Virus record (IMG/VR): IMGVR_UViG_3300025087_000641
Coordinates: 1 to 64,000 of that record
Source: a virus
Length of the DNA stretch: 64,000 bases
Strand: one strand, 5' to 3'
In this document: positions 8,837 to 55,110 of the stretch, one piece after another
Position numbering within the stretch: the first letter of the stretch is position 1
How the letters are laid out: every line of letters starts with the position of its first letter
Position numbers and translations under genes: made by a program
The notes under the pieces: model-generated
Database searches by the model: none
Told to the model about the DNA's origin: nothing
The model's input: only the letters and a program-made list of their open reading frames with translations

Positions 8837-8925
8837 GGAGGCTAGTCCTCCCTCACTTGCCCCAATGGACTAATCCGCCACAGATGAGCGGAGGTGAGTA
8901 GAGTTATTGGGGCAAATGAGAGGGG
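8837..8925 (+). ncRNA. tandem-hairpin intergenic RNA element
   Basis: Two hairpins fill the gap between genes. The first is GGAGG-CTAGT-CCTCC (8837-8851). The second pairs TTGCCCCAAT (8857-8866) perfectly with ATTGGGGCAA (8906-8915), is extended by CTC/GAG across a 2x2 loop, and encloses an inner hairpin TCCGC/GCGGA (8874-8892). There is no T run, so it is not a plain terminator. It could be a processed small RNA, an mRNA-stabilising element or a regulatory leader of the gene at 8950. Confidence 0.55.
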
Positions 8926-8949
8926 ATTAGCAGACTGGAGGATCATCAC

Positions 8950-9150
8950 ATGACAAAATACAATGTCTTTATTCGGCGGTGGTGGAAAGATAACCCGACA
9001 TGGCCGAAAGGCCTTGAGCCTCAGATGGGCAGAAAAACATACTTACAGCGCAATGTTGATTATGATACTGCGCGAAGCATTGCCAGAGAGTATAACACCA
9101 CGCACAAGCCGGGGCGTTATTCCCTCAAGGCGGAATTTGAGGAGGCCTAG
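8950..9150 (+). CDS. small basic protein, 66 aa
   Basis: Tryptophan-rich and basic N-terminus (FIRRWWKDNPTWPKG), then a helix (DTARSIAREYN). Preceded by GGAGGATCATC, a good ribosome site. It directly follows the structured element at 8837. Function unknown. Confidence 0.6.
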   Translation: MTKYNVFIRRWWKDNPTWPKGLEPQMGRKTYLQRNVDYDTARSIAREYNTTHKPGRYSLKAEFEEA

Positions 9151-16131: not shown

Positions 16132-16282
16132 TTTCAGCAGCGGTGATCGCAATGCATACAGCAAGCCGGAATACGGCAATTTGAAACTGGTGTATCTCGG
16201 ATGTGGCGTTCTCTATTCACTTGACGGAAAACGCCAGAACTCTACATACAAAATGCACTTCTTCCGAAAGATTGGTTTCTGA
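16067..16282 (+). CDS. hypothetical protein, 71 aa
   Basis: The ATG follows GAGGGAGCC by about 10 nt. Beta-rich, basic product. An internal ATG at 16109 would reduce overlap with the previous ORF. One of the two overlapping frames may be decayed. Confidence 0.45.
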   Translation: MKWKTSTSQNAYWTMGTITTYDFSSGDRNAYSKPEYGNLKLVYLGCGVLYSLDGKRQNSTYKMHFFRKIGF

Positions 16283-16298
16283 CACTAACACATTGGAA

Positions 16299-16314
16299 TA
16301 GTCAAATTTGCACA
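16299..16314 (+). promoter_or_regulatory. copy of motif TAGTCAARTTTGYACA
   Basis: TAGTCAAATTTGCACA, identical to the 3738 copy. It lies 5' of the structured leader at 16378 rather than directly before a ribosome site. Confidence 0.5.
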
Positions 16315-16377
16315 AAAGACCGCCCTTGACAGAATCAAGAAATGTCATACAATCTACGCCACAAATGGCTTGCCGGA

Positions 16378-16493
16378 GCCGAGACTGGGTACTAAAAGAA
16401 AATCACTCTCCGCATGGGAAGTGGTTGTTTAGAATCAAGTACCCAGATTCGACAACATCGGCCCATTTTCCATGCGAGGAGTGATTTTGTTTT
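16378..16493 (+). ncRNA. candidate riboswitch/attenuator leader with interleaved helices
   Basis: Four arms occur in the order A-B-A'-B'. A is CTGGGTACT (16385-16393), pairing perfectly with A' (16438-16446). B is 16399-16417, pairing with B' (16470-16488) as AAAATCACTC/GAGTGATTTT plus CGCATGG/CCATGCG across a 2-nt internal loop. An outer GCCGA/TCGGC (16378-16382/16458-16462) encloses A. B' contains the only ribosome site (GAGGAG, 16476-16481) and runs into TTTTGTTTT just before ATG 16494. B-B' can therefore hide the ribosome site or terminate transcription, while A-A' forms a pseudoknot or alternative. No known riboswitch class is recognised. Confidence 0.6.
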
Positions 16494-16790
16494 ATGAAAG
16501 CATACAAGCCAAACACAATTATGAACGGCCACAAGTCAGATGTACCCGACCTCACCACCAATGAGACTGGCAACAGACTCCGCGCAGAACTATCCCAACT
16601 GCCTCACACAGTCAAAGACAATGAGATATGCCTTGAGACTCCTGTAAAACTCAAGGTGCTATCCTTTTTGATTGACAAAGGCTTTCTGTGGAGTGAGCAC
16701 GTGGTGAGTCGAATCTCGCAGAATTGCCTTATCAACAGTCGAAATGAGGGCAAGGCTTGGTGGACAATTGCCGACTACAAGATTCTGTGA
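16494..16790 (+). CDS. hypothetical protein, 98 aa, behind a structured leader
   Basis: Mixed alpha/beta protein with LKVLSFLIDKGFLWSEHVVS mid-sequence and TIADYKIL at the end. Its ribosome site is inside the hairpin at 16470-16488, so expression is probably conditional. The function is unknown, so the ligand cannot be guessed from it. Confidence 0.6.
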   Translation: MKAYKPNTIMNGHKSDVPDLTTNETGNRLRAELSQLPHTVKDNEICLETPVKLKVLSFLIDKGFLWSEHVVSRISQNCLINSRNEGKAWWTIADYKIL

Positions 16791-16820: not shown

Positions 16821-16982
16821 ATGGCACGGCAAGGCAGGGCCAGGCGTGGCTCGGCTGGGCCGGGCAGGGTACGGCATGGCGAGGCGGGGCAAGGGAAAGA
16901 CTTGAAAGAGTACATTGATGACACCACAGACAAAGCGCCAGCGCAGATTCGCATACCTCACAGAACAAACAATGCTGCGTGA
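16821..16982 (+). CDS. ORF through the GGCNN array, 53 aa
   Basis: An ATG frame reads through the pentamer array into an Arg/Gly/Ala-rich N-terminus, then an ordinary-looking tail (DLKEYIDDTTDKAPAQ). No ribosome site is visible. Because 5-nt units shift the reading frame, length changes in the array would switch frames. Translation is doubtful. Confidence 0.3.
   Translation: MARQGRARRGSAGPGRVRHGEAGQGKDLKEYIDDTTDKAPAQIRIPHRTNNAA
16823..16895 (+). repeat. degenerate GGCNN pentanucleotide array, 14 units
   Basis: Fourteen consecutive 5-nt units begin GGC (one GGT at 16868), with the last two bases nearly random: AC, AA, AG, CA, GT, TC, TG, CG, AG, AC, AT, GA, GG, AA. The local GC content is far above the surroundings. 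Preservation of GGC with free NN indicates selection or a templating process, not simple slippage. Confidence 0.85.
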
Positions 16983-37246: not shown

Positions 37247-38431
37247 ATGATTATCAATAAATCATTTAAGTTCAGAGTTTATCCAACGAGAGAACAGAAA
37301 AAAGAACTCGTCAGGCAATTTGACGCATCACGTTTTGTATATAATTATTTTCTTCGCCAAAGAATTGATTTCTATGTTGCCCACAGGGGGGAGAAAAAAC
37401 AATCCCTGAATTATAATGATACTTCTGCATTGCTTACTCAACTTAAAAAACAGCCTGAATATAATTGGCTTAGGGATACAAATGCCCAATCTCTTCAACA
37501 GTCCTTACGCAATCTTGATATTGCCTATAATAATTTTTTCAATAAACGGACTGAATTTCCGAGATTCAAAAGTAAAAGGGCAAAGCAATCCTTCCATGTC
37601 CCACAATCTTTTTCGGTAAATGTTGAAAATGAACATTTAATTATCCCCAAAATAACACCACTAAAAATTGTTCTGCACCGCCATATTGAGGGGAAAATGA
37701 AGGGCGTTACCATTTCCCGCTCTCCGTCTGGCAATTATTTTGCCTCTATTCTATGTGAAGTTGAAATTAATCCGAGTCCAAAAAGTCTAGGGCACACTAT
37801 TGGATTAGACTTGGGATTGAAACATTTTGCCATTTCATCGGATGGGGCAAAAATAGATTCTCCAAGATATTTTAGGGTATCCGAGCGTAGGCTTTCACGT
37901 TTTCAGCGTAACCTTTCAAGAAAGAAAAACGGAAGTCGGGGACAAGAAAAGGCAAGATTGAAAGTAGCACGTCAGCACGAAAAGATTGTAAATCAACGCA
38001 TTGACTTCCTTCATAAATTAAGTCGTCGCTTAGTAGACGAGAGCCAAGCTATCTATGTTGAGGACTTAAATGTGAAGGGCATGATAAAGAATCGCGCCCT
38101 TGCAAAATCTATCGGCGATTCTGGGTGGGGAGAATTTGTGCGCTGGTTAGAATACAAGGGCAGATGGAATGGTTGTTATATTGGGAAAATTGATAGATTC
38201 TTTCCATCAAGCAAGCGGTGTCACAAATGCGGCTACATCTACCAGGATTTGCGACTCTCGGAACGTGAATGGACTTGCCCAGAATGCGGGAACACAGTAG
38301 ACCGTGATGAGAACGCTGCCCAGAATATTCTTATTTTTGGGGAAGAACGTAGGGCTGGGATGGCCCGAACGCATACGCGAGGGAAGATTCGTCGCCGAAT
38401 CGCTGATCCTCGAAGTCGCATGATTCTATAA
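37247..38431 (+). CDS. tnpB: TnpB RNA-guided endonuclease (IS200/IS605 family)
   Basis: 394 residues, complete. The RuvC-like catalytic residues are in place: Asp188 in GLDLGLKHF, Glu272 in YVEDLNVKGM and Asp352/354 in VDRDENAAQNI. The zinc finger C325-x2-C328 ... C344-x2-C347 is intact. The N-terminal wedge begins KFRVYPTREQ. TnpB cuts DNA guided by an RNA from its own 3' end and favours element retention. The basic tail (THTRGKIRRR) overlaps the presumed guide-RNA region. No tnpA in the window, so movement would need one in trans, or the gene serves as a homing-type nuclease. Confidence 0.92.
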   Translation: MIINKSFKFRVYPTREQKKELVRQFDASRFVYNYFLRQRIDFYVAHRGEKKQSLNYNDTSALLTQLKKQPEYNWLRDTNAQSLQQSLRNLDIAYNNFFNKRTEFPRFKSKRAKQSFHVPQSFSVNVENEHLIIPKITPLKIVLHRHIEGKMKGVTISRSPSGNYFASILCEVEINPSPKSLGHTIGLDLGLKHFAISSDGAKIDSPRYFRVSERRLSRFQRNLSRKKNGSRGQEKARLKVARQHEKIVNQRIDFLHKLSRRLVDESQAIYVEDLNVKGMIKNRALAKSIGDSGWGEFVRWLEYKGRWNGCYIGKIDRFFPSSKRCHKCGYIYQDLRLSEREWTCPECGNTVDRDENAAQNILIFGEERRAGMARTHTRGKIRRRIADPRSRMIL

Positions 38432-54430: not shown

Positions 54431-54502
54431 GCGATTCTCCTTGACACAATTGTTCTAATGTGGTACAAATGTACTGTCTAGACGGTTGCTAGTCGGGTGT
54501 GA

Positions 54503-54573
54503 TATAATGAATCGAGAAGTCTTGTGCAAGGCAATCGTCTAGACAACAATTGCCACCCGCACAAGGCTTTTTG
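54503..54573 (+). terminator. promoter-proximal leader terminator before HNH gene
   Basis: TATAAT (54503-54508) is followed by a long hairpin: CTTGTGC (54521-54527) with GCACAAG (54559-54565), extended outward by AAG/CTT across a wobble pair, and inner GGCAAT/ATTGCC (54530-54535/54549-54554), ending in a T run (54568-54572). The ribosome site AAGGAG and ATG 54589 come only after it. The hairpin should stop most transcripts, acting as an attenuator. Confidence 0.7.
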
Positions 54574-54588
54574 TTTAAGGAGTCCAAA

Positions 54589-55110
54589 ATGGAAGAAGAA
54601 ATATGGAAGGATATTCCAAATTTCCCGCACTATCAGATTAGCAATCTTGGGCGCGTTCGTTCGTTTTTCGTCAGGGGGCAAAAACAGAAACCATGTGATA
54701 CTCCGAGAATACTTGTTCCTGTTCATCGTGGCAAGGGATATTATGCGGTAAATCTTCATCGTGGAGATGATATGATTATGGTTAATATCCACCAAGCTGT
54801 TCTTACTGCATTTGTCGGCCAATGTCCAGATGGACTTGAGGCGTGCCACAATAACAGTGTTCGCAATGACAACAGGCTTGAGAATCTTAGATGGGATACC
54901 CGTTCCAGCAACTTTCTTGACAAACGCGCAAATGGAACATCTCGCTGTGGCGAGGAAAATAATAGGGCCAAACTTAATACTGCCCAAGTTCTCGAAATAC
55001 GAGAGAGGGCATTTCAGGGAGAATCGTTTGGGGTTCTCTCCGGGGATTATGGGATAAGTAATATCCATGTAAAGAGAATTGTAGAACGGGTTGTGTGGCA
55101 ACATATCTAG
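54589..55110 (+). CDS. NUMOD4-HNH homing endonuclease
   Basis: Residues 6-52 are a NUMOD4 motif (WKDIPNFPHYQISNLGRVRS), 67-102 an HNH core (IHQAVLTAFVG, ACHNNSVRNDNRLENLRW), and the end a helix-turn-helix-like NUMOD segment (KLNTAQVLEIRERA). 173 residues, complete. The only + strand gene in the virion block, so a free-standing homing gene inserted between two minus-strand tail genes. Ribosome site AAGGAG. Confidence 0.9.
   Translation: MEEEIWKDIPNFPHYQISNLGRVRSFFVRGQKQKPCDTPRILVPVHRGKGYYAVNLHRGDDMIMVNIHQAVLTAFVGQCPDGLEACHNNSVRNDNRLENLRWDTRSSNFLDKRANGTSRCGEENNRAKLNTAQVLEIRERAFQGESFGVLSGDYGISNIHVKRIVERVVWQHI

Follow-up and report, generated by a model that had tools for sequence, protein, structure and literature searches.

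What does the leader of a 98-aa ORF do when its RNA can fold in two ways, one of which closes the ribosome site just before the start codon? The ORF belongs to an uncultured phage whose record spans 105,404 bp with a 126-bp direct repeat near its ends; the window, the stretch of DNA analysed here, is bases 1-64000 of that record. (After the direct repeat, the end of the record, genome 105321-105404, is an inverted copy of nearby sequence, probably an assembly fold-back.) A stretch of 211 non-coding bases separates the 98-aa ORF from a 71-aa ORF that ends at 16282. A first-pass annotation of this gap had described a leader at 16378-16496 with four alternating arms, A, B, A' and B', and had proposed that it is a new kind of riboswitch.

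Arms of the leader and its two folds

The leader follows a predicted sigma70-type promoter that places the transcript start at about 16360-16361 (Table 1). The promoter in turn follows one copy of a recurrent intergenic dyad motif of about 28 nt (core ATTAGTCAAATTTGTACA), for which we found about 20 matrix matches across the 105-kb genome. These copies lie mostly in short intergenic gaps right before ribosome sites, are mostly oriented with transcription and are reminiscent of phage stoperators. A near-identical copy occurs in the close relatives L006-L008, which are fragments with terminases 90-100% identical to that of this phage, and the motif is absent from more distant relatives.

Table 1. 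Features of the leader, its surroundings and comparable loci
Feature	Position	Strand	Remarks
Recurrent dyad motif, one copy	16289..16321	+	core TAGTCAAATTTGCACA; putatively operator- or promoter-like; immediately 5' of the -35
Dyad motif copies, window	3728, 8166, 10033, 14304, 15468, 16289, 18173, 21313, 53786		
Dyad motif copies, rest of genome	73563, 85894, 92494(-), 101235(-), 102472, 104801		
Predicted promoter TTGACA-16-TACAAT	16326..16353	+	11/12 consensus positions; -35 at 16326-16331, -10 at 16348-16353
P0, short GC hairpin at transcript 5' end	16367..16380	+	from prefix folding; two analogues have short GC hairpins in the same place
E, 5 nt within P0	16372..16376	+	paired in the MFE fold of prefixes ending at 16463-16476; weak alone
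A, CTGGGTACT	16385..16393	+	9-bp complement of A'
B, 5' arm of long hairpin	16393..16424	+	30/32 positions pair with B'
A', AGTACCCAG	16438..16446	+	fills 9-nt apical loop of long hairpin
E', UCGGC	16458..16462	+	in 3' bulge of long hairpin
B', 3' arm of long hairpin	16463..16494	+	includes ribosome site and U-tract
GAGGAG	16476..16481	+	sole Shine-Dalgarno-like site before ATG 16494; nearly all paired in B-B'
U-tract TTTTGTTTT	16485..16493	+	3' foot of hairpin; terminator-like
98-aa ORF	16494..16790	+	weak coding signal on codon statistics of this phage
Second A-B-A'-B' leader in window	54475..54588	+	before NUMOD4/HNH endonuclease ORF (54589-55110); A 54475-54484, B 54521-54527, A' 54536-54545, B' 54559-54565
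Third interleaved leader in window	8857..8930	+	before 66-aa ORF at 8950; A 8857-8866, B 8870-8876, A' 8906-8915, B' 8924-8930
Detector loci	window leader; L026:17284 (record G002); L127:6348 (record G027)		

The alternating order of the arms was described correctly by the first-pass annotation, as was the perfect 9-bp A-A' helix. Arms in the order A-B-A'-B' cannot be produced by one inverted duplication. The B-B' stem contains 27 Watson-Crick and three G-U pairs, and its perfect runs of 10 bp (AAAATCACTC/GAGTGATTTT) and 7 bp (CGCATGG/CCATGCG), with a 2-nt internal loop between them, are probably what the first-pass annotation had counted as 17 bp plus a 2-nt loop, within a longer stem. The two arms lie 38 nt apart, and within that gap the inner stem of the long hairpin positions A' in the apical loop. 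B' ends on the first base of the start codon, and we confirmed that it holds the only ribosome site, followed by the T-rich stretch. Pairing of E with E' (possible helix 16372-16376/16458-16462) can lengthen the A-A' helix.

The stability of this leader exceeds chance. Its RNA has a minimum free energy of -48.8 kcal/mol (z -6.7), matched by none of 200 shuffles, and the 30 pairs of B-B' compare with a maximum of 25-27 in eight dinucleotide-shuffled 64-kb windows. Ranked by sliding-window stability over both strands of the 105-kb genome, the leader hairpin comes only about sixth, and is thus strong but not unique. Among 77 starts, the one at 16494 ranks third for a closed start region and third for minimum free energy. 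The mean unpaired probability of GAGGAG is 0.17 at 37 C, with nearly all positions close to zero bar one mismatch. The Shine-Dalgarno sequence stays paired at every temperature computed, on which ground we rejected an RNA thermometer.

We folded the growing RNA from the predicted start with a program that does not allow pseudoknots. Once A' has emerged (16446), the RNA adopts the A-A' fold, with a small B-arm hairpin inside it and energies of -30 to -37 kcal/mol, until the long hairpin becomes the best fold at about 16478-16484. At full length, constrained energies are -51.6 kcal/mol for B-B' and -39.6 kcal/mol for A-A', a gap of about 12 kcal/mol. A full-length pseudoknot is sterically unlikely, because A adjoins a stem of about 30 bp that carries A' at its far end; the two helices would therefore be alternatives, or else a means of pairing between two molecules. 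The first-pass annotation had envisaged a choice between a pseudoknot and a sequestering or terminating hairpin, driven by a ligand or a ribosome. Our analysis does yield two rival folds, of which one buries the ribosome site and runs out into the U-tract, whereas the pseudoknot is replaced by the nested A-A' fold, as computed by a pseudoknot-blind program. The idea of a ribosome-driven switch found no support: the sole frame that crosses the leader (16308/16365-16484) has a non-coding score of -16 bits, where 95% of genuinely coding stretches of equal length reach +3 or more, and has no Shine-Dalgarno sequence, so that we rejected it as a gene or leader peptide.

As a putative terminator, the hairpin combines a 30/32-position stem with TTTTGTTTT, yet it has a long stem, a large loop and an A-T base. 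A standard terminator scan (loop limit 8) did not list it, and it is long and large-looped compared with a compact terminator.

Taken together, our preferred reading, to which we assign a probability of about 0.5, is that the leader is a two-state conditional terminator in which the arm that terminates would double as a cover for the ribosome site. On the promoter match, RNA polymerase would start near 16361. In the nascent RNA, the computed folds suggest that A-A' forms first, with the small B-arm hairpin inside and possibly E-E' outside, giving a transient permissive state; as B' emerges, B-B' could displace A-A'. The hairpin of about 30 bp followed by UUUUGUUUU would then cause termination just 5' of the ATG at 16494, and in any read-through transcripts GAGGAG would be buried in B-B'. 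Because B-B' would both terminate and bury GAGGAG, the default output would be a short RNA of about 130 nt and little protein, and the 98-aa gene would be made only if A-A' persists or B-B' is opened. Candidate openers of B-B' are a protein, RNase III, or A/A' pairing between two RNA molecules. Folding kinetics or a factor acting in trans, and no known ligand, would probably decide the outcome.

A simpler reading, which we doubt but take seriously, is that B-B' is a plain strong terminator, a hairpin that hides the ribosome site, or both, and that A-A' is a coincidence with no switch. Such a hairpin, perhaps a substrate of RNase III, would keep the gene low or delay it. The energy gap at full length and the closure at all computed temperatures agree with this reading, as does the moderate rarity of A-A' alone, since some 9-bp inverted repeat is found in 40 of 2000 shuffled 119-mers (2%). 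Hairpins that act on ribosome sites or as terminators are, moreover, established in phages (PMC2988022, PMC3014915). What argues against coincidence is placement: A' exactly fills the apical loop and A lies exactly at the foot of the stem, which gives A-A' more weight because the same placement recurs in the units of records G002 and G027 and in same-order leaders of endonuclease genes, which we describe below.

Interleaved leaders in the phage and its relatives

The A-B-A'-B' order is found directly before three homing-type nuclease genes of this phage (G000), at 54589 (NUMOD4/HNH_3), 65978 (DUF559/Vsr-like) and 68351 (NUMOD3/HNH). It is also found before endonuclease genes of the relatives G010, G024 and G036, and G027 adds two cases that are less perfect. 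Such a leader is missing from this phage's four other endonuclease genes and from several of those in relatives. In the three endonuclease leaders of this phage, constrained energies of the two folds are nearly equal (-34.9/-32.8, -33.0/-32.4 and -32.1/-34.6), and -10-like elements lie on either side of A or just after it, so that transcripts with and without A are conceivable. The leader at 54475..54588 contains such a -10 (TATAAT, 54503-54508) as well as a U-tract. In the leader at 8857..8930, the GGAGGA of the 66-aa ORF lies outside the hairpin and there is no U-tract. The order A, Q, B, A', Q', B' is common to the leader before 68351 and the leader of the G027 counterpart (L129:12482), with different sequences in the two; judged from these two sequences only, the pair is the nearest thing to covariation here.

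Of the 116 leaders of this phage, 5 contain interleaved pairs of perfect repeats, against 0.15 expected from shuffles and 0.1 from dinucleotide shuffles, with thresholds that were fixed after the first cases were known. They are concentrated at endonuclease genes (3 of 7 leaders, compared with 2 of 109 others; Fisher p ~0.001). Among related phages, which we reached through their terminase, 22 of 1557 leaders have interleaved pairs against 2.9 expected, a count in which some records overlap; for comparison, T4 has 1 in 51 (0.55 expected) and lambda 0 in 42. In a control across the relatives, nested pairs (17 versus 2.5 expected) and disjoint pairs (25 versus 2.7) are enriched as much as interleaved ones (19 versus 3.9), indicating that inverted repeats of every arrangement are common in their leaders and account for part of the signal. 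On this control we rejected a general claim that interleaving is favoured over other arrangements across all relatives. By arrangement, this phage has five interleaved, two nested and no disjoint pairs, and it is only here and at the leaders of endonuclease genes that the data suggest a preference for interleaving.

We also scanned about 1.9 Mb with a detector for a long hairpin with a T-rich foot and a 5' neighbour complementary to its loop. It returned four places, two of them at one locus, and hence three loci (Table 1); a shuffled set gave one match. Each of the three units combines a promoter of the TTGACA type with a small GC hairpin and a U-tract (T8 in the G002 analogue, T6 in that of G027), with A directly 5' of B, A' in the loop and an E/E' pair flanking A/A', and their sequences are unrelated. 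Prefix folding gave A-A' first and B-B' last in all three RNAs (16361-16493; L026:17248-17388 in G002; L127:6303-6448 in G027), that is, an earlier alternative structure that, as computed, excludes the terminator, as in an attenuator. In a strict T-tract screen with a downstream control, upstream complementarity showed no clear excess (z<-4: 6 versus 5), and the case for these units therefore rests on their individual anatomies and not on the screen count. A second promoter-to-hairpin unit in G002 (L027:13553-13661, TTGACT-17-TACAAT) has long interleaved repeats of 14 and 12 bp that extend over the next promoter.

The G002 and G027 units extend from a promoter to a T-tract, and the next 150-220 nt or so contain no annotated-type ORF start; from this anatomy each resembles a gene for a small RNA with a terminator at its end. 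By extension, the RNA of about 130 nt could be the main product of the window leader too, acting in trans or dimerising through A (in the tail) and A' (in the loop), with the 98-aa ORF incidental. We consider this improbable, as the window element and the endonuclease elements end directly at a ribosome site or start. It would explain how A, which should hardly reach the loop of its own molecule beside the long stem, could find that of a second molecule, and there is a precedent in IsrK of Gifsy-1, a terminated short RNA that acts on its own read-through mRNA (PMC4825925).

Three other features of the window caught our attention: a TnpB-type protein (37247-38431; IS605 OrfB, Cas12f1-like TNB domain), a 390-aa ORF that is RNA ligase RtcB-like by eye (416-1588; 57% identical to a G027 protein) and a long block of sugar-nucleotide/glycosyltransferase-like genes (26348-53800) largely common to the phage G027 of about 100 kb.

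Known families and related systems

No Rfam family matched the window at gathering level (best E>0.6 at a relaxed threshold), and the analogue loci were likewise without a match, in agreement with the first-pass annotation, which had recognised no known class in the leader. Homologues of the leader were absent from 50,697 phage records by blastn and tblastn, from plasmids and from nine related virus records, and protein and arm-pattern scans of viral contigs found none. In genome contigs the protein scan was empty, and six arm-pattern matches in unrelated bacteria were at chance level. With no true sequence homologue, there is no classical covariation to draw on. For the 98-aa protein, we found no homologue in phage records, viral and genome contigs or the nine related virus records and no endonuclease match in Pfam or PHROGs, and a single-sequence structure model was uninformative (mean pLDDT 52). 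Just 3' of its ORF, 16821-16905 is a degenerate GGC-rich repeat (ggcacggcaaggcagggccaggcg...).

These searches bear on the remaining two readings, both of which we regard as very improbable. A ligand-sensing riboswitch, as originally proposed, would fit an aptamer-like early fold followed by a sequestering or terminating expression platform, but we saw no sign of a conserved aptamer core here or in the look-alikes, which have layout and not sequence in common, and the genes downstream differ (the 98-aa ORF, endonucleases, or, in two units, no gene start directly behind). A feature of the DNA such as an operator or the ends of a recombination or insertion element might merely resemble an RNA leader, given arms that are palindromic in DNA, TA at the start and end and an operator-like dyad just upstream, but the leader is a single copy in the genome, which also led us to reject a MITE or insertion element, with only scattered chance-level arm-pattern matches in phages, plasmids and the genome scan, and its position is tied to the promoter and the ATG.

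Returning to the conditional terminator, its closest parallels are found in two phage systems. The IsrK/orf45-anrP leader of Gifsy-1 gives rise to a terminated short RNA and a silent read-through mRNA (PMC4825925). The window leader would resemble it in its own promoter, here predicted, in a short RNA that a putative terminator closes off, in a read-through mRNA with its ribosome site hidden by alternative folds, and in self-complementary stretches able to pair in cis or in trans. It differs in that there is no sequence relation and we saw no gene-coupled small ORF upstream. Through A/A' complementarity, an IsrK-type action in trans of the window RNA on the read-through mRNA is possible. The CI RNA/seqA-seqC system of P4 is a relative of IsrK in logic, and uses processing and seqA/seqB/seqC, with no interleaved terminator.

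The second parallel is with the hairpins that sequester the ribosome sites of the T4 homing endonuclease genes I-TevI, I-TevII, I-TevIII and segB and of Aeh1 mobE (PMC2988022). As in those leaders, the ribosome site of the window leader is paired in a stable 5' hairpin; T4-type hairpins often have a promoter in the 5' arm, and the endonuclease leaders described here have promoter elements in the A arm. The known cases are, however, single hairpins, whereas the present leaders set two interleaved helices against each other and include a U-tract, and the 98-aa ORF of the window cannot be recognised as an endonuclease gene. Classical antiterminator/terminator attenuators also pit an early helix against a terminator hairpin that is made last. 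Their helices share a strand, whereas A-A' and B-B' share essentially none, so that exclusion would be steric or topological. The best reading of these comparisons is that the leader would work like the Gifsy-1 IsrK leader and the T4 endonuclease hairpins, a likeness that does not by itself make it a member of either group. Our search of the open-access literature for interleaved terminator leaders found none.

Since unrelated sequences with the same layout stand before homing genes in this phage and its relatives, the leader looks like a reusable on/off device rather than a metabolite sensor. More tentatively, at clearly less than even odds, we suggest a class of phage leaders defined by layout, in which interleaved, sequence-variable A-B-A'-B' helices compete and one of them serves as terminator and, in some cases, perhaps also as a lid on the ribosome site. 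Such leaders would be used before free-standing homing endonucleases and some small early genes, and the short RNA may act back on read-through transcripts via A/A'. If this is true, phages own a cheap switch that is set by layout and not by sequence, and Rfam and covariance searches miss such switches because only the order of pairing is kept. It would also hint at how homing endonuclease genes of the free-standing kind, on arriving at a new site, come with control over their own expression.
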